The notes under the pieces are model-generated. The model was given only the letters and a program-made list of their open reading frames with translations. It did no database searches and was not told the origin of the DNA. The position numbers and the translations under genes are program-made. Below are positions 7,893 through 42,944 of a stretch of 64,000 bases of DNA, in pieces; the stretch's first letter is position 1; the number at the start of each line of letters is the position of its first letter. Origin of the DNA: an uncultured Bacteroidaceae bacterium (GTDB lineage: Bacteria; Bacteroidota; Bacteroidia; Bacteroidales; Bacteroidaceae); assembly GCA_905233465.1 (NCBI GenBank), contig CAJOEI010000003.1, positions 1-64,000 on the forward strand. Reading direction: 5' to 3'.

Positions 7893-9145
7893 CAACATCC
7901 GAATTCATCAGCACGCATAAAACAGACGACGTCCATCGGTTGGCTCTTTCCAAGCCTCCGGCGGGCGTCGACCTGCATTATGCCCTGCAGCAGATTGAAG
8001 GCTGGCAGTTGGCTTGCAGCAAGCTGCCCACATGGGCTGCGACCGACGACATAAAGTATCCGCCACGGATAGCGCTTGAACAATGCTCAAGCGAAGCGAC
8101 GGCTCAATACAAGACACGGTTGCTGGGTGACGCAGCCCCTCCCCCGACCCCTCCCCTGTTAGGGAGGGGAGCCTTCTGCAATGCTTTTGCTGACCTCACG
8201 GGAGGTTTAGGCGTGGATTTCATGGCGCTTGCTCCATGCTTTGGTGTTGCAACGTATGTCGACAGACAGACGATTTTGGTTGATGCGGCGCGTCACAACG
8301 CTTCTCAGCTGTTAGGTGGCGCAACTATGGAACGCCTCAATTTCGTTTGTGCCACAGCAGAAGATTATTTACGTGAAATGGAGCCTGTCGACGTGCTCTA
8401 TTTGGATCCTGCACGGCGCGATGCAACCGGACGTAAGGTGGCTCTCATTGCAGACTGCAGTCCTGATGTAGCTCTACTGCATGATTTGTTGATGCAACGT
8501 TCACGCCGATGCATCATCAAGCTGTCTCCGATGCTTGATATTACGGCTGCCCTGAGCGTTTTGCCAGCAGCCGTTGAGGTGCATGTAGTGAGCGTTGACG
8601 GGGAGTGTAAGGAAGTGATAGTTGTGCTTGACAGGGAGCATCATGATATCGTCATCCACTGTGCAATGATATCAAAGGGGGGAGGTCGGGAGGTGGCTCT
8701 TTTCAGTTTTACACCTGCCGAGGAAGCTGTCTCGTCGCCGTTGCTTGCAGACGGGATAGACGAGTACGTCTACGAACCAGATGCGGCGTTGCTCAAGGCT
8801 GGTGCCTTTCGCAGTGTGGCATTGCGTTATGGCCTGCTCAAGCTGGCAACTGATACACATCTATATACTTCATCTGCACTACTGCCAGAGTTCCCAGGCC
8901 GCTGTTGGCGTGTGGTGGGGCATTGTGGGTTTGGTAAGCGAGAATTGCGCTCCATGCTTGCTGGTGTGCGTTCAGCGGAGATTGGTGTTCGTGGCTTTCC
9001 TGGCAGCGTAGCCAGCCTGAGACGTCAGCTGCACTTGTCTGACGGTCCAGATGCCCATCTCATCGCCACTACACTCGCCGATGGCAGCCATCGCTTGTTA
9101 CGTGTTGAGCTTGTGCAAAAAAGCTCCGCCGCACTGTGTGTATGA
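7889..9145 (+). CDS. SAM-dependent methyltransferase with THUMP-like domain
   Basis: FADLTGGLGVDFMAL SAM site, DVLYLDPARRD motif; contains the in-frame repeat-derived peptide APPPTPPLLGRG. Confidence 0.8.
   Translation: MTTSEFISTHKTDDVHRLALSKPPAGVDLHYALQQIEGWQLACSKLPTWAATDDIKYPPRIALEQCSSEATAQYKTRLLGDAAPPPTPPLLGRGAFCNAFADLTGGLGVDFMALAPCFGVATYVDRQTILVDAARHNASQLLGGATMERLNFVCATAEDYLREMEPVDVLYLDPARRDATGRKVALIADCSPDVALLHDLLMQRSRRCIIKLSPMLDITAALSVLPAAVEVHVVSVDGECKEVIVVLDREHHDIVIHCAMISKGGGREVALFSFTPAEEAVSSPLLADGIDEYVYEPDAALLKAGAFRSVALRYGLLKLATDTHLYTSSALLPEFPGRCWRVVGHCGFGKRELRSMLAGVRSAEIGVRGFPGSVASLRRQLHLSDGPDAHLIATTLADGSHRLLRVELVQKSSAALCV
8137..8170. repeat. GC-rich palindromic repeat copy inside the methyltransferase CDS
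   Basis: cccctcccccgacccctcccctgttagggagggg; shares CCCCTCCCCTGTTAGGGAGGGG with about 580-601 and, inverted, about 36597-36625. Confidence 0.8.
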
Positions 9146-9162
9146 TACACAATGCGGCGGAC
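9117..9162 (-). terminator. Rho-independent terminator for the small-protein module, within the 3' end of the convergent gene
   Basis: Minus strand TCCGCCGCA...TGCGGCGGA stem followed by GCTTTTTT. Confidence 0.6.
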
Positions 9163-9186: not shown

Positions 9187-9411
9187 CTATTCGTCCCAGT
9201 GGAAGTCCCAGAGGTCATTGCCGTCCTGTTGTTCCTTGACACGTGCAGGCAGGTCGGCTCCATCACCATATTCGAAGCCGGCATTGCCGTCAACAGTGAT
9301 ATTGCTTGTGACGAGTATGGAGCTGTACGTTGAAGGTAAGATGACACATGTCATCGGTCGTTTGTATGTTTTCATAATGTTCATGTCGTTCTGCTCTTGG
9401 TCCCTCTTCAT
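9187..9411 (-). CDS. Small MKTY-type protein, 74 aa
   Basis: MKRDQEQNDMNIMKTYKRPMTCV...NDLWDFHWDE; ATGA overlap with the upstream secreted-protein gene. Confidence 0.6.
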   Translation of the reverse strand: MKRDQEQNDMNIMKTYKRPMTCVILPSTYSSILVTSNITVDGNAGFEYGDGADLPARVKEQQDGNDLWDFHWDE

Positions 9412-12400
9412 TTAACTACCATTTTCTTTTTGTTGACGATGTAGATGCCGCGTTGTAATTTGTCATTTACCATTTGTCCGGCGAGGTTATAGCAATTGTC
9501 AGATTGTAAATTGTCAAATTGTCCAATCGTATTGATGCCAGTGGTGGTGTCGTCGAAGTTGAGGACAAATGTATTTACGTTGGCTGCTCCTTCGTTGATA
9601 TGGAAATATGCCCTGAAAGCGTTGACCTTATATCCTTGTGCAGAAGGCCAATGCAGGCGATTGTCAGCAGCGACATACAGGTTGGACTTGTCTCCGCTGG
9701 GTAATGGGGTGGGGGAGTAAGTACCCTGGAAGGAGACAGTGGCGTCAACGCTGGTAACGGCTGTGGCGGGGGCGTCAGATAGTGTTACGTTGGTGAACGA
9801 TGGGTTGACAATGTCGTCGCCAGCAGTCCATTTAATTATGTACGGCACACCGGCTTCAATAGTTGTGGCATCTTTGAAGTTGAGATACAGTGTGTTTCCT
9901 TCGATGCCGGTGGTGTGTCCGTTGTATGTGCCGTTGATGTCGAGTTGCTTGAGTGCTGCTGGTGCGAGCTGCGCCTGGACCTGTTCTGCTGTCATGCTGA
10001 ATGGCAGGCAGATGGTGTTCCAACTGTTGTCCTTGTAGAGTGTGCGGCCTTGCAGAGTGACGTTGGCGAGCACTTGATAGGCATTGTTGATGGTTGTGGC
10101 ATTGTCTGAATTGTCAAGCAGTGTGACGCTGGCGGGTGTGACATCGTTGGAGTACTGATACTTGAAAGTTACAACTACTGGATGGTGGTCGCCGAGCGGC
10201 GTATTGTCGTCATTGGCTCCGCCATTGAGTGCGTTGACATAGCCGTAGGTGTAGTCCTGTTCAATGCGGAAGGTCTGTGGTGTGAGCCGAACGGTGTTAG
10301 CGGCAGTGGGGTTGATGTAGATAATCTTATCCACAATCTCGTACTTGGAGTAGTCTGTTGGGTCGGTGGCATCAGTGAGGTCGCTCATGTCGGTTGTCGG
10401 ATATATGCCTCCCCGATAGAACTCTACCCATACATCACTCATGGTAAGGTTGCTGCTGAGTCGGTTCTTGAAATGCGAGATTATGTCTTCGCGTGTCCAT
10501 CTGCTGTTGGTGTCGCCGATGATGAGTTTTGCACGGCTGAGGTCGCTTGCATTGATGGCATCGCAGAGTTGCTCCCACTGAGCGTGGCGTGACCATGTGG
10601 CATTGGTGTCGCCAGCATCCATGTGAAGTATATATACGTCGATGACAATACCTCCTTGCAGCGTCATGTCGTAGTGGCGGAAGCCCTTCTCTACGTATTG
10701 GTTGCCATCTGTTGATTCTGTGGAGTTCCAGCGTGTCCAACTTTCGTTGGAGGCTCCGAAGCTGTTCTTCCAGATGAGGTTCAGGCCGTCGGTCTCAACG
10801 TGGAGATTTCCTTTTATTAGTTCTCCATAGTCGAGTCCGCCGACGCTAAGTGTCTTTCTAATTGTGCCGCAGGAATAGTTGTCATTGAGATACTCCATGA
10901 GGGATCCGTTGTAGTTGAAGTCTTCGGAGCAACCGATAAAGTCATAGTTTTTTGAAGCGAGGTACTGACTTATCTTGAGCGTGCCTTCGGCTCCAGGCCC
11001 GTCGGGGTTCAGTTCATACTTACCAACAACATAATTGATTTCCTTTGGCAGACCATCAACGTTGAGTGCCACGCATGTGAAGGTGCCTTCCGTGACATTT
11101 CGGTATGGCATTATCACAAGTGTGGCATTATCAGCACTTGTCTTGAAGTATGTGCGGCCTACAGGCAGTGTCATCGTGCGTGTGGGGGTAGAGCCTGTGG
11201 CGGAGGCGCAGGGAACGTTGCCATTGGTTGTGTAGATGAGTTCGTTGAGCGGGCCGATGAGCTGGTATTCGGTGTTGTAGTCCACGTCGTAGTAGTACCA
11301 CTGGCCTGCGATTAGCTTTGTCCCGTTGTTGGGCAGACGCACAGCAACGCCATCGAGATACAGTGAACGGCAGTGCAGCTGCACGTCGTCTAACTTGAAG
11401 AAGGTTTGAGTTTCACCTTCATGACCTCCCACCCACCATCGTCCGGTGCTCTCACACGTAATAGTGAGTTGACCGTCGGTGATGATGGTACCTGACGTGT
11501 TGACGCGGATGCCCGTGCCGTCGCCTTGTCCGTTTTGTGTCACGGTGTTGTTATTGGCGGAAAGTGTTACGGTGCGGCCTTCCCATGCGGCTACAACGCC
11601 TGACACCTCATACTCGCCTGCAGGCAAATCGCTGATGGTCTGGCTGACGCTGAGCGACGGTGCCCACCACTGGTAGGCATTCATCAGATAGCTGCCGTCC
11701 TTGTTCGTCATACCGTAATCACCGCGAACCATGAACTCATTGTTGCTATCTTCTTTACCACTGAGCGTCCATCCTGTATCGTCACCTGTCTCAAATGATG
11801 GGTTCTGCACATGCCATGTTGCATCGCTGTTGCTGATAGTTTGTTGTAGGCTGAGTAGATTGGCACGGCTGATGCGCCACAGCCGATAGTGCCCAGCCTC
11901 GTCACCCGTGGTGTTGCGGCGGTTCAGTGCTATTGGCTCATTGGCCTCCACACGGTTGTTCCACGGACCCATGTAGCCACATGCCCAGTTGTCGGATGAA
12001 ATGGGGTATTTGCCGTTCTCGAAGAGCCAATAGCCGTTCTGGTATGTCGGTTTGAGATAGCACCAGTCGGACATTGTGGGCTCGGTGTATGTGAGTACAT
12101 ACATATATCCCGCGTTGTCGTGTGTCTGGAAGAGGCTTGTATGCAGCACTACGTTGCGCAGACCTATGTACTCATTCTCCTTCTCTATGGTGAAGAAGTT
12201 CGATAGGTCGGTGACAGGGTCACCAGCTTGACGGTAGCGTAGGGCCTTTGTGTCCTCACCAGCCCATCCGGGTTTTGCCTCGTAACGGCCAATACCGACA
12301 AAGAGTTGTGTGTTTTCAGCAGCCGTGATGAGGTAGCACTGTTGCGGGTCGGCAATGATACCGTCTTCGGATGTCACTTCTGTGAACCCTCGAGCTGTAT

Positions 12401-12488
12401 TGACATAGGTCGTATAGTCTGTAGCTAAGGTAGACAATGTGGCGGTCAGTATGGCAAACGAAAGTGTAAATAGATGTAAGATACGCAT
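9408..12488 (-). CDS. Secreted endonuclease/exonuclease/phosphatase-superfamily protein with sorting-like C-terminus
   Basis: Start at MRILHLFTLSFAILTATLSTLA signal peptide. EEP-like motifs VALNVDGLP, HMDAGD, GDTNSRW, DHHPVVV. C-terminus NLAGQMVNDKLQRGIYIVNKKKMVVK. Confidence 0.75.
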   Translation of the reverse strand: MRILHLFTLSFAILTATLSTLATDYTTYVNTARGFTEVTSEDGIIADPQQCYLITAAENTQLFVGIGRYEAKPGWAGEDTKALRYRQAGDPVTDLSNFFTIEKENEYIGLRNVVLHTSLFQTHDNAGYMYVLTYTEPTMSDWCYLKPTYQNGYWLFENGKYPISSDNWACGYMGPWNNRVEANEPIALNRRNTTGDEAGHYRLWRISRANLLSLQQTISNSDATWHVQNPSFETGDDTGWTLSGKEDSNNEFMVRGDYGMTNKDGSYLMNAYQWWAPSLSVSQTISDLPAGEYEVSGVVAAWEGRTVTLSANNNTVTQNGQGDGTGIRVNTSGTIITDGQLTITCESTGRWWVGGHEGETQTFFKLDDVQLHCRSLYLDGVAVRLPNNGTKLIAGQWYYYDVDYNTEYQLIGPLNELIYTTNGNVPCASATGSTPTRTMTLPVGRTYFKTSADNATLVIMPYRNVTEGTFTCVALNVDGLPKEINYVVGKYELNPDGPGAEGTLKISQYLASKNYDFIGCSEDFNYNGSLMEYLNDNYSCGTIRKTLSVGGLDYGELIKGNLHVETDGLNLIWKNSFGASNESWTRWNSTESTDGNQYVEKGFRHYDMTLQGGIVIDVYILHMDAGDTNATWSRHAQWEQLCDAINASDLSRAKLIIGDTNSRWTREDIISHFKNRLSSNLTMSDVWVEFYRGGIYPTTDMSDLTDATDPTDYSKYEIVDKIIYINPTAANTVRLTPQTFRIEQDYTYGYVNALNGGANDDNTPLGDHHPVVVTFKYQYSNDVTPASVTLLDNSDNATTINNAYQVLANVTLQGRTLYKDNSWNTICLPFSMTAEQVQAQLAPAALKQLDINGTYNGHTTGIEGNTLYLNFKDATTIEAGVPYIIKWTAGDDIVNPSFTNVTLSDAPATAVTSVDATVSFQGTYSPTPLPSGDKSNLYVAADNRLHWPSAQGYKVNAFRAYFHINEGAANVNTFVLNFDDTTTGINTIGQFDNLQSDNCYNLAGQMVNDKLQRGIYIVNKKKMVVK

Positions 12489-38310: not shown

Positions 38311-38380
38311 CAAATAAAAGCATCACCCCCAGCCCCTCCCTTCCATTGTCCATTGTTCATTGTTCAGAGGGGGGATAAAT

Positions 38381-39461: not shown

Positions 39462-39603
39462 TATTTATCGCACATACATCACAGTAGCAGCTGCAACACT
39501 CGTTGCAGCTGCTGCATAATATATTAGTTGAATCTTGCTATAGTTCAAGAATCATAGAACCTGAATTGTCAATTGTCCATTGTCAATTTTCAATTCTCTA
39601 TTA

Positions 39604-39804
39604 TTACTTGCTCCAGTCGTCATCCCATACGTTGTAGGATGACTGGCTGCCGTTATCACCCTTGACCATAGCTTCGCCAGTGGCATTGGCGTTATAGAAC
39701 GTGGCACTACCCGAAGCACCATTAGCTGTGAGCGAACCAGCGATGACCATTTGTTGCTGCACAGCCACCATCATGGTCATAGGAATAATATATGTCTTTT
39801 TCAT
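39604..39804 (-). CDS. Small MKKTY-type protein, 66 aa
   Basis: MKKTYIIPMTMMVAVQQQMVIAGSLTANGA...YNVWDDDWSK; ATGA overlap with the upstream secreted-protein gene. Confidence 0.65.
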   Translation of the reverse strand: MKKTYIIPMTMMVAVQQQMVIAGSLTANGASGSATFYNANATGEAMVKGDNGSQSSYNVWDDDWSK

Positions 39805-42800
39805 TTTACCAATACTTTTTTACCGTTAATAATATTGATGCCCTTCTGCATCTTGCTCAGGCGCTGACCTGCGAGGTTGTAAATGACGTTGGACATTGAA
39901 CATTGACCATTGACCATTGAACTGTCCTCATTGTCAATTGAGCGAATGCCATCCACAACAGCATCTAAGTCTATATTGAAGAACTCCTTTACATCTACAC
40001 CGCTCTCACTCTTCAAGATGCTGATGTATGCGCGGTTCTTGGCAACGGTTTTACCATTAGCTTTGTAGAAACCAATATTATCGTTAACCTTGTTCAGAAT
40101 ATAGTTATAGTTCGTTCCATCGTCCGTAGCTACTGTTGCACCAGTGCCTTTCACGAACTTGTTGCTAGTAACTGTTTCTGCACCAGTACCATCAAAGACA
40201 GGAATTTCCTCGGTCTTTGCTCCAGTACTATTATATATAAGAACACCAGTGTTAGCAGGGACCTTATTCACCTGAGTGAATGTTACACCTGTACCATTGC
40301 CTTTGGTAATAGCGATATAAGCGTTAATGTCATTATCTGTGAAGTCAAGAGGACTGTCGCTTGCATAAGTAGCGAAACCAGAAGCGTCAGAAATCTTAAC
40401 GACTTCAGCAAGTTTGGTCATTTCATCTGTGTTCTTAAGACCTTTAGTCGTAATATAGCCCGTAATATCTGCTTTTACTACGACCTTAGCAACACCAATA
40501 AAATGAGGATTATTCTGCACATTAAAGTTATCACGAATTGAACCCGAAGGTAGCTGGACAGCCACAGTATTATCAACATCGTCTTCATCTGGGTCATCCG
40601 CGATTGCTAAGTTCGTATTAGAATCTCCATTTCTTCCGAAATTACTCTTAGATCCACTTTTATAACTTCCAACGATATAACCTATTACATATTTTCCGGT
40701 TCCTTCTGCACCATTCTTCACCTCTGCTACAGTATAAGGATGAGCGGCTGTACCTGGAGCAGCAGTTACAGTAACTGTGCAGGAAGCATAGATGGAAGCA
40801 TTTTCGGTAGACTTAACTGTGATGGTTGCTTCACCAACGGCAACGCCAGTCACGACACCGTTTGCATCAACGGTGGCAATGGAAGTATTGCCCGATTCCC
40901 AAGTAACGTTCTTGTTCGTTGCGTTATTGGGGGATACGGTAGCAGTGAGTGTCGTTGTCTCACCAACATTCACAGATGCTGTGGCATTATTTACACTGAC
41001 GCCTGTCACGGCAACCGTATTCACGGTAATACTGTAGGTCGTGGTCTTGGTTGTTCCTTTGTGAGTATAAGAAACCGTGACAGTCTGCACACCTGCAGTG
41101 TTCATATTATAGCCTGTAAATGTTGCTTGACTTGTAACATCTGCGTTAGTTTCGTCATTGAATGTTGCCGTTACTGTCATGCCCTCATGCGAGAATGCAT
41201 CACCCACGTTGAATGTGGTAGGATAGGTGCCGCTCAGAGCGATAGACTCAAGTGCAGCGGGAGCCTTAACGGTAATGCTGTATGTTGTCGTCTTCTCAAC
41301 AGCATTCTCTGTATAACTGACTGTAACTGTTTTTATGCCTGTAGAAGACATGTCTGGTGTGCTGAAGGTAGCGCTGCTCGTAACAACAGCCTCAGAAGCA
41401 TCGTCATATGTAGCCGTTACCACTGCTCCCTCATGTGAGAAGGCGTCGTTAGTCTCGAACACGGTGGGATATGTACCAGAAACTGCGATAGAAGAGAGAG
41501 TCTTTTGCTTTTCGAGAGTTACCTCAGCACTACTAATAAAGCAATTTCCACTCAATGAAAATTCAACGCTCGTTGCCAAACCAGACCACGTTTTCCCATT
41601 CAGCGTTCCACTATTTACAGAAGGGGCATTCCATGTGTTGTTTCCACCAGTAGTGAAGGTGATTCCTTTTATATCATAACCCGAGGGGGCTGCAAACGTA
41701 ATAGTACTTCCATTATATACACGAATGTAGTCACCATCTCCACGAGGACGTGTGTTTGTACCATCGGTAATTGTCACTGTGACATTATCCTGAGATTTTA
41801 CAACAGGCAAAGCCCCTGAGTTAAGATTTCCTCCATTAGAAGACCCCAACCATTCATAGTTCATATTGAACGTTACGCTTGTTGGCTGAACATATTCGTT
41901 CACTGTAATTGCCTGTGTGGTTGTTTTGGTGACAGCGTTTTCAGTATAGCTTACAGTGATTGCTGTATTGCTTGTTGAGAGAGCAGTGGATGTAGAAGGG
42001 CTATATGTGCAGGAAGCCGTAACATCATCTGTAGTAGCGTCAGAATAGTTAGCCGTCACTACCATTCCTGTGGGATCAAATGTCTCCCCTTCAGTATAGG
42101 TTGTTTTAGTAGGTGCAGTTGTAATAGCAATACTACTCAAGGCGGGGTTTGTAACAGTAATGGTAGCCGTTGCTTCACCAGCGTTATAAGTGCCAGTTGC
42201 AGCCTGCTCTGCCTTTACGGTTACGCTACCTGCTGCAATGGCGGTTAGCGTGCTGCTTGAAAGAGTAGCATAGCTGCCTCCATCTGTTATGGTGTACGTA
42301 ACTGCCCCCGTGCTATTACTTTCGAAAAGCGTGCTGAGGTTAAGAGTTTTACCTATGCGTACGTTTCCATTGCTGAAAGTGATTGTAGGATCTACCTTGG
42401 CTGCAGTTTCCTCTTCTGTATTTACGCCCCAAAATACAGCGCGTTCACTATTGGCTGTTATAGTAATTGTAGCTGATGAAGTCAACGCTGTCGAAAGTGT
42501 AATTACTTTATAATAATTTGTCGTAGCATTTGCAGGTGTGGATAGAGTAAATGTTGTAGATGAACCGCTTATTCCATCATCTGCTGTTAAGGATTCTGCG
42601 TTAAGCAGCGTTGTCGAACCATTCTTGACAGTTAAAGTAGGGGATTTTCCATTCCAAGCTGCAATATGTATGTGAATGTATTTCGTTCCACTTGGAGCTG
42701 TAATCGTAGCGGATCCTCCGGAACCGCTCTTTCCCAGTTTTATACCATCATATTCAGTTCCGCTTGAGGAAAGCTTTACTTTACAAGTATTTACATTTGT

Positions 42801-42944
42801 TCCAGAAGTGGGAAGCGTGACATTGCTGGTATAAACGGCAGACTTGTCGCTTTGTCCCCACACACTTCCTGTTCCGAGGGAACACAATAAGGCTACGAGG
42901 AGGGCGATGCGTAGCCGGATTGAATTAAGTAAATTTTGTTTCAT
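39801..42944 (-). CDS. Large secreted protein with tandem bacterial Ig-like domains and sorting-like C-terminus
   Basis: Signal peptide; repeated SIAxSGTYPT...GxxFxxxGxxVTAxYxDxxxxxVT...VTVSYTENAVxKTTTxxITV; Big_2-like VSPNNATNKNVTWESGNTSIATVDANGVVTGVAVGEATITV; C-term NLAGQRLSKMQKGINIINGKKVLVK. Confidence 0.82.
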   Translation of the reverse strand: MKQNLLNSIRLRIALLVALLCSLGTGSVWGQSDKSAVYTSNVTLPTSGTNVNTCKVKLSSSGTEYDGIKLGKSGSGGSATITAPSGTKYIHIHIAAWNGKSPTLTVKNGSTTLLNAESLTADDGISGSSTTFTLSTPANATTNYYKVITLSTALTSSATITITANSERAVFWGVNTEEETAAKVDPTITFSNGNVRIGKTLNLSTLFESNSTGAVTYTITDGGSYATLSSSTLTAIAAGSVTVKAEQAATGTYNAGEATATITVTNPALSSIAITTAPTKTTYTEGETFDPTGMVVTANYSDATTDDVTASCTYSPSTSTALSTSNTAITVSYTENAVTKTTTQAITVNEYVQPTSVTFNMNYEWLGSSNGGNLNSGALPVVKSQDNVTVTITDGTNTRPRGDGDYIRVYNGSTITFAAPSGYDIKGITFTTGGNNTWNAPSVNSGTLNGKTWSGLATSVEFSLSGNCFISSAEVTLEKQKTLSSIAVSGTYPTVFETNDAFSHEGAVVTATYDDASEAVVTSSATFSTPDMSSTGIKTVTVSYTENAVEKTTTYSITVKAPAALESIALSGTYPTTFNVGDAFSHEGMTVTATFNDETNADVTSQATFTGYNMNTAGVQTVTVSYTHKGTTKTTTYSITVNTVAVTGVSVNNATASVNVGETTTLTATVSPNNATNKNVTWESGNTSIATVDANGVVTGVAVGEATITVKSTENASIYASCTVTVTAAPGTAAHPYTVAEVKNGAEGTGKYVIGYIVGSYKSGSKSNFGRNGDSNTNLAIADDPDEDDVDNTVAVQLPSGSIRDNFNVQNNPHFIGVAKVVVKADITGYITTKGLKNTDEMTKLAEVVKISDASGFATYASDSPLDFTDNDINAYIAITKGNGTGVTFTQVNKVPANTGVLIYNSTGAKTEEIPVFDGTGAETVTSNKFVKGTGATVATDDGTNYNYILNKVNDNIGFYKANGKTVAKNRAYISILKSESGVDVKEFFNIDLDAVVDGIRSIDNEDSSMVNGQCSMSNVIYNLAGQRLSKMQKGINIINGKKVLVK

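Follow-up and report, generated by a model that had tools for sequence, protein, structure and literature searches.

Linear polyphosphorylated peptides (LPP) of Bacillota are the products of the LppA/K/B/S/D/N system (Popov et al. 2026, PMC13381572). The YxxP leader of LppA is bound by the discrete RRE LppB, Ser3 of the LppA core (A1-Q2-S3) is polyphosphorylated by the HprK-like LppK, and the leader is removed by the SipW-type LppS with the help of the RRE (PMC13381572). LPP clusters also comprise an MsbA-like exporter and an NTP-transferase and carry one to three precursors inside the cluster; they were stated to be restricted to Bacillota, and the biological role of the peptides was stated to be unknown (PMC13381572).

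The stretch of DNA analysed here (the window, 64,000 nucleotides from an uncultured Bacteroidaceae bacterium) carries two copies of a unit in which the gene for a secreted protein, the cargo, is followed by a gene for a small protein. We consider the small protein to be a ribosomally synthesised precursor peptide, either of the LPP type or of a close Bacteroidales cousin, a reading to which we assign a probability of about 0.7.

Cargo A is a secreted EEP-family protein of 1026 aa (9408-12488, minus strand, as for the genes, protein parts and hairpin of the window given below) which ends in ...NLAGQMVNDKLQRGIYIVNKKKMVVK, as described in a first-pass annotation of this DNA. Its assignment to the EEP (endonuclease/exonuclease/phosphatase-like) family was retained in part. 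The cargo A sequence alone gave no Pfam match, PF03372 and PF22669 included, while its orthologues match PF22669 (Exo_endo_phos2, E=6.2e-6) and PF03372 (E=3.8e-4). Cargo A thus appears EEP-like by its orthologues only, and the homologous stretch places the putative EEP domain at about residues 466-783 (10140-11093). It is followed by a penultimate domain of ~160 aa with a W-N-T-I-C-L-P-F motif, here called domain X (9528-10067; HMM A5 E=2.4e-41, a self-inclusive score, as cargo A is the first sequence of this HMM), and by a sorting-like C-terminal tail (9411-9539; tail HMM A4 E=7.9e-17, with cargo A in the model).

The gene for small protein A (MKTYKRPMTC...LWDFHWDE) had been proposed as a 74-aa ORF whose ATG overlaps the stop codon of cargo A as ATGA. 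This ORF exists mechanically at 9187-9411 and extends 5′ of the likely start. Homologues all start at the Met of MK(K)TY, which is the thirteenth residue of the mechanical ORF and lies at 9375, 33 bp 3′ of the cargo A stop, so that ATGA coupling is doubtful for copy A and a protein of 62 aa (9187-9375) is supported. The family HMM matches it at 9190-9375 of the contig (G000:C3; E=1.2e-17). Alignment and spacing suggest a leader of residues 1-21 (9313-9375) with a YKRP motif, the cleavage point being taken over from LppA; by alignment the conserved Ser is residue 24 (LVTS). An intrinsic-terminator-like hairpin of 15 pairs (9125-9161) followed by GCTTTTTT (T run) is found 3′ of the small gene, in agreement with the terminator claimed at 9117-9162.

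In copy B, cargo B (1047 aa, 39801-42944) contains Big_2, Big_3 and DUF6359 domains, domain X (39939-40418; HMM A5 E=2.8e-40) and a sorting-like C-terminal tail (39804-39944; tail HMM A4 E=1.0e-18), cargo B being part of both models. Its stop does overlap the start of small protein B as ATGA (39801-39804). Small protein B, recognised as an ORF and by the family HMM, has 66 aa (MKKTYIIPMTMMVAVQQQMVIAGSL...NVWDDDWSK; 39604-39804). By the spacing of 16 from Y..P to A-x-S, and with LppA as model, its residues 1-21 (39742-39804) would form the leader, and the core would begin with A22-G23-S24. The motifs that the two small proteins were said to share (an MKxYxxP start, a segment containing Ser and a W-D-x-x-W end) are real. 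A single family HMM matches small proteins A (E=1e-17) and B (7e-28), which both belong to the model, and detects 13 more genes in this genome. Directly after small protein B (39564-39586), and also at 38343 and 36564, lies a dispersed repeat rich in AT, GACAATGGACAATTGACAATT, and the linker before the sorting tail is encoded by repeat-like DNA near 39900-39940 (SSMVNGQCSMSN). The AT-rich repeat may be a recombination substrate for tail exchange.

The genome of the window is a MAG of 57 contigs with 85% completeness, and as far as completeness suggests its congeners are all MAGs as well. A search of this genome for ATG-Lys-Lys-Thr-Tyr returned four sites, all of which are small genes located directly 3′ of genes with sorting-like tails, and a search for C-terminal W-D-x-x-W yielded further small genes of like kind. 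With a profile built from ten members 15 small genes were found in this genome and 0-19 in each of 18 congeners. Among 44 small ORFs collected by motif with their flanks from 14 genomes, 41 lie 3′ of a gene with a sorting-like tail; two of the remaining three lie at the end of a contig, and for one no partner is visible. Nearly all members start 1-160 bp 3′ of such a secreted-protein gene. Over 107 pairs, cargo and small gene are separated by a median of 38 bp, and stop/start coupling by ATGA, which holds for copy B, was therefore rejected as a general rule. The family extends over the genus of the window and one more family of the same order (f110), which shows the same arrangement with a C-terminus of SLWGDDE instead of NVWDDDWSK; outside the genus the HMM undercounts these short, fast-evolving proteins. 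No Pfam or NCBIfam assignment was obtained for the small-protein family. The counts from the genome, the congeners and the second family strongly support the recurring unit of cargo and small protein that had been suggested from two copies. In genome G001 (C30, L091) tandem small genes are located at a contig end, and in G002 (C16, L109) two neighbouring cargos are followed by identical small proteins; both are probably cases of recent duplication or gene conversion.

The genes upstream have sorting-like C-termini, as anticipated, but the determinant is domain X and not the tail in general. Tail HMM A4 finds ~63 sorting-like tails in the genome of the window vs ~15 small genes. A domain X profile was trained on one half of the cargos with a small gene and tested on the other half in two folds. 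In this case-control sample domain X was recognised in 59 of 59 cargos with a small gene and, among 27 tail proteins for which no small gene was recognised, in 5; one of these five has a small gene after all, which leaves 4 of 26. In a prospective sample, 34 of 40 domain-X genes picked by domain score alone are followed by a small gene (one of the 34 is doubtful), vs none of 22 tail genes without domain X (Fisher 1e-11). The numbers of domain-X and small proteins correlate across 28 genomes (rho 0.94), and families without domain X are also without small proteins and vice versa. Thus the small gene is linked to domain X, the ~160 aa just before the tail, and a role as partner of sorting tails in general was rejected, as the majority of tails occur without a small gene and domain X decides. 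For domain X neither a Pfam family nor a sequence relative in the PDB was found. The AF2 model of the domain (pLDDT 83, pTM 0.83) retrieved nothing from the PDB at E<0.001 by Foldseek.

Orthologues of the EEP protein in congeners (loci L144-L173) carry interchangeable C-terminal ends. Those ending in two dockerin-like repeats (GDVN.DG..TIADVTALVNIILGK) or in a short tail that directly adjoins the enzyme have no small gene, while those with an extra region of ~200 aa (domain X) and a tail have one in four of six cases. Tail exchange among these orthologues looks frequent. An immunity protein or inhibitor for the EEP enzyme was also considered for the small protein and rejected, as the small gene is missing behind EEP orthologues with other tails and present behind non-EEP cargos.

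Sequence features were recorded for 107 distinct small proteins, a few of which are motif false positives. The Pro of Y-x-x-P is present in 107 of 107 and the Tyr in 103 (96%); Ser is found at P+16 in 79 of 107, and Ala precedes it at Ser-2 (A-x-S) in 68 of 91. The Pro is encoded by all four and the Ser by all six available codons, which shows that selection acts on the protein. The near-invariant Tyr is encoded by TAT in 98 of 103 sequences, in contrast to free variation among the codons for Pro, Ala and Ser; this bias may reflect an early-codon or RNA-level constraint. The middle of the proteins is hypervariable. Towards the C-terminus the proteins are acidic (mean net charge -5), and in 98% W or F is among the last nine residues. 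Residues 9-20 include a charge in 93% of the 107 sequences and only 4% reach the hydropathy of a signal peptide, so that a Sec-secreted peptide was rejected. AF2 predicted no fold for the small protein (pTM 0.21), with residues 1-20 confidently extended.

A candidate maturation locus is located outside the window (G000:C13:46640-48399, L244) and consists of genes for an HprK-like kinase, a SipW-type signal peptidase (S26B) and PqqD, neighboured by sigma-70-like and MFS genes. The genus has one such operon. A PqqD-type RRE is present in every congener examined, and PqqD alone is common across the order. The PqqD of the operon in the window's genome matches PF05402 (E=1.9e-13), and the PqqD profile reaches TfuB1 at 4e-6 and LppB (9x8z_B) weakly at E=0.067. 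The peptidase has the invariant SM and HR and a Ser-His spacing of 38 vs 39 in LppS, the assignment of the Asp being uncertain; its homologue in genome G128 matches TIGR02228 with E=6.7e-9, below the curated cut-off. The kinase shows similarity to TIGR04352/TIGR04249 below cut-off and a P-loop SGTGKST. Neither an ABC exporter nor an NTP-transferase adjoins the operon in the genus of the window. In f110 the gene order is kinase, peptidase, PqqD, ABC exporter; the operon of G128 includes an ABC gene, and those of G249, G037, G227, G296 and G072 include an ABC gene and a ~370-aa gene taken for an NTP-transferase. In family f77 a conserved secreted protein of ~650 aa is encoded near the kinase/peptidase/PqqD operon (L286 6095-8050 and L288 185-2140, genomes G095 and G201) and is possibly a further component of the system.

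Two data sets link the small proteins to this operon. Strong HprK homologues (E<1e-37) occur in 20 of 295 genomes of the order, namely in six of the seven with credible small proteins and in 14 of the other 288 (Fisher 3e-7), 'credible' excluding three hits: one containing stop codons, one that is weak, and one that belongs to a PqqD-HprK locus of a different subtype. If all ten genomes with small proteins and any HprK match are used, the test gives 2e-5. One genome with small proteins (G312, an 89%-complete MAG) gave neither an HprK nor a PqqD match. Furthermore, an HMM of the leader, trained on the 107 sequences only, was run on 2818 short ORFs from ~500 kb around operons; a match in G181 (C123) was left out, as its contig had been fetched for that match. 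The top matches are peptides beside the operon and on its strand: 39 bp from the kinase in G037 (MKKLYTSPEIEVVEVIEYGFAASEPLGRS...), between PqqD and kinase in G107 and G257, 2.3 kb from the operon in G249 and 3.6 kb in G277. The linkage of peptides and operon in these families is claimed from the leader HMM, since a loose YxxP rule revealed no enrichment near the operon (8/52 vs 45/317). The precursor lies within the maturation cluster in G037, G107 and G257 but not in the genus of the window, where the 8-10 kb around the operon, in the window's genome and in the congeners examined, contained no precursor; for this genus the link is consequently made by motif and by analogy with the other families.

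Based on these data the following course of maturation is proposed. The first ~21 residues of the small protein would act as leader, with Y-x-x-P bound by the stand-alone PqqD-type RRE (G000:C13). The conserved Ser, usually within A-x-S, would be phosphorylated by the HprK-like kinase of the operon, and the SipW/Sec11-type signal-peptidase homologue would remove the leader, the cut most likely falling just ahead of A-x-S. The core, acidic and with an aromatic end, would then be exported. The precursors would be dispersed outside the maturation cluster, each located as 3′ cistron behind the gene of a secreted protein that carries domain X and a sorting-like tail; therefore the peptide would be made with, and probably act with, the surface protein. 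A chaperone, inhibitor, co-secreted peptide or maturation factor had been offered earlier as functions of the small protein. The co-secreted peptide comes closest, while a precursor processed by the RRE/peptidase/kinase operon fits better than the other three.

As to the action of the mature peptide, a RiPP-type phosphopeptide may serve as dedicated subunit or glue of surface proteins, one per domain-X protein, with a shared operon and acting through domain X. We hold this as a tentative and rather doubtful extension, of which contact of the peptide with domain X at the surface is the most speculative part. Cassette hitchhiking alone could have created the domain X linkage, if domain X, tail and small gene were transferred as one 3′ cassette in tail swaps, peptide and cargo having no functional contact. 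The interchangeable tails of the EEP orthologues (dockerin-like, tail only, or domain X with tail and small gene) and the identical small proteins behind the two G002 cargos are consistent with such a transfer, which accounts for linkage but not for conservation, and the linkage is kept in the second family with its diverged C-termini and is ~85% complete prospectively. We rate hitchhiking as a serious possibility, somewhat short of even odds; it is compatible with a precursor role and rivals only the contact between peptide and domain X.

A chaperone or anti-folding factor which stays in the cytoplasm, is dedicated to domain X of the secreted partner and is translated from the mRNA of that partner would explain why the linkage is strict to domain X and not the tail, why the small proteins lack a Sec signal, and why the small gene comes after the cargo gene as 3′ cistron and is itself followed by a terminator. 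Nevertheless, in other families the HprK/S26B/PqqD operon has peptides with the same leader next to it, the YxxP and A-x-S pattern agrees with LPP precursors, and a hypervariable middle with no predicted fold is atypical of a chaperone, which makes this explanation improbable to us. Weak matches of NF033528 (lasso_cyano) to 6 of 34 members (best E=0.0059) suggest a leader with an RRE-binding Y-x-x-P and, like the YxxP leader itself, would suit lasso-peptide precursors. The leader protease of lasso peptides (B2, PF13471) was not found above cut-off in 13 genomes of the genus, the window's own and 12 congeners, and a kinase and a SipW-type peptidase are present instead; a lasso peptide is thus very improbable and was rejected.

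If the small proteins are indeed LPP-type precursors, this reading accounts for a group of small genes left without annotation in these genomes. The linkage to domain X hints at a purpose of such peptides and makes LPP function directly testable with peptide and domain X. As RiPP precursors these genes are positioned away from the maturation genes, and cluster-based mining would miss them.

Among described systems, the cargos resemble proteins with a type A CTD of the T9SS (TIGR04183 / PF18962) in that their C-terminal tail has hydrophobic-Gly and GKKV motifs, whereas the family described here has, in addition, domain X and a peptide gene on the 3′ side. None of 26 tails reached the cut-off of TIGR04183 or PF18962, TIGR04183 matching four of the 26 weakly (best E 0.021); SprA was found in 9 of 12 congeners and was not found in the 85%-complete genome of the window. 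Phosphorylated lasso peptides of the paeninodin type share an HprK kinase, a PqqD RRE, a Y/WxxP leader and, in some operons, a putative NTP-transferase with the Bacteroidales system, whereas the genus is without a PF13471 protease above cut-off and a linear product is expected. The likeness to LPP comprises a discrete RRE, an HprK-like kinase and an archaeal-type (SipW-like) signal peptidase I homologue in the operon, and a precursor with YxxP leader, A-x-S core start and variable C-terminus; some of the Bacteroidales operons also include putative NTP-transferase and MsbA-like ABC genes, and some are located near capsule genes. In contrast to LPP, the spacing from P to Ser is 16 where LppA has 15, the FET that precedes the cleavage site of LPP precursors is not conserved, and exporter and NTP-transferase are outside the operon in the genus of the window. 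Moreover, the Bacteroidales precursors number 4-20 in most genomes and are dispersed, each 3′ of a secreted domain-X protein, so that LPP-like precursors would occur in Bacteroidales, amplified to up to 20 per genome and tied to one undescribed domain.
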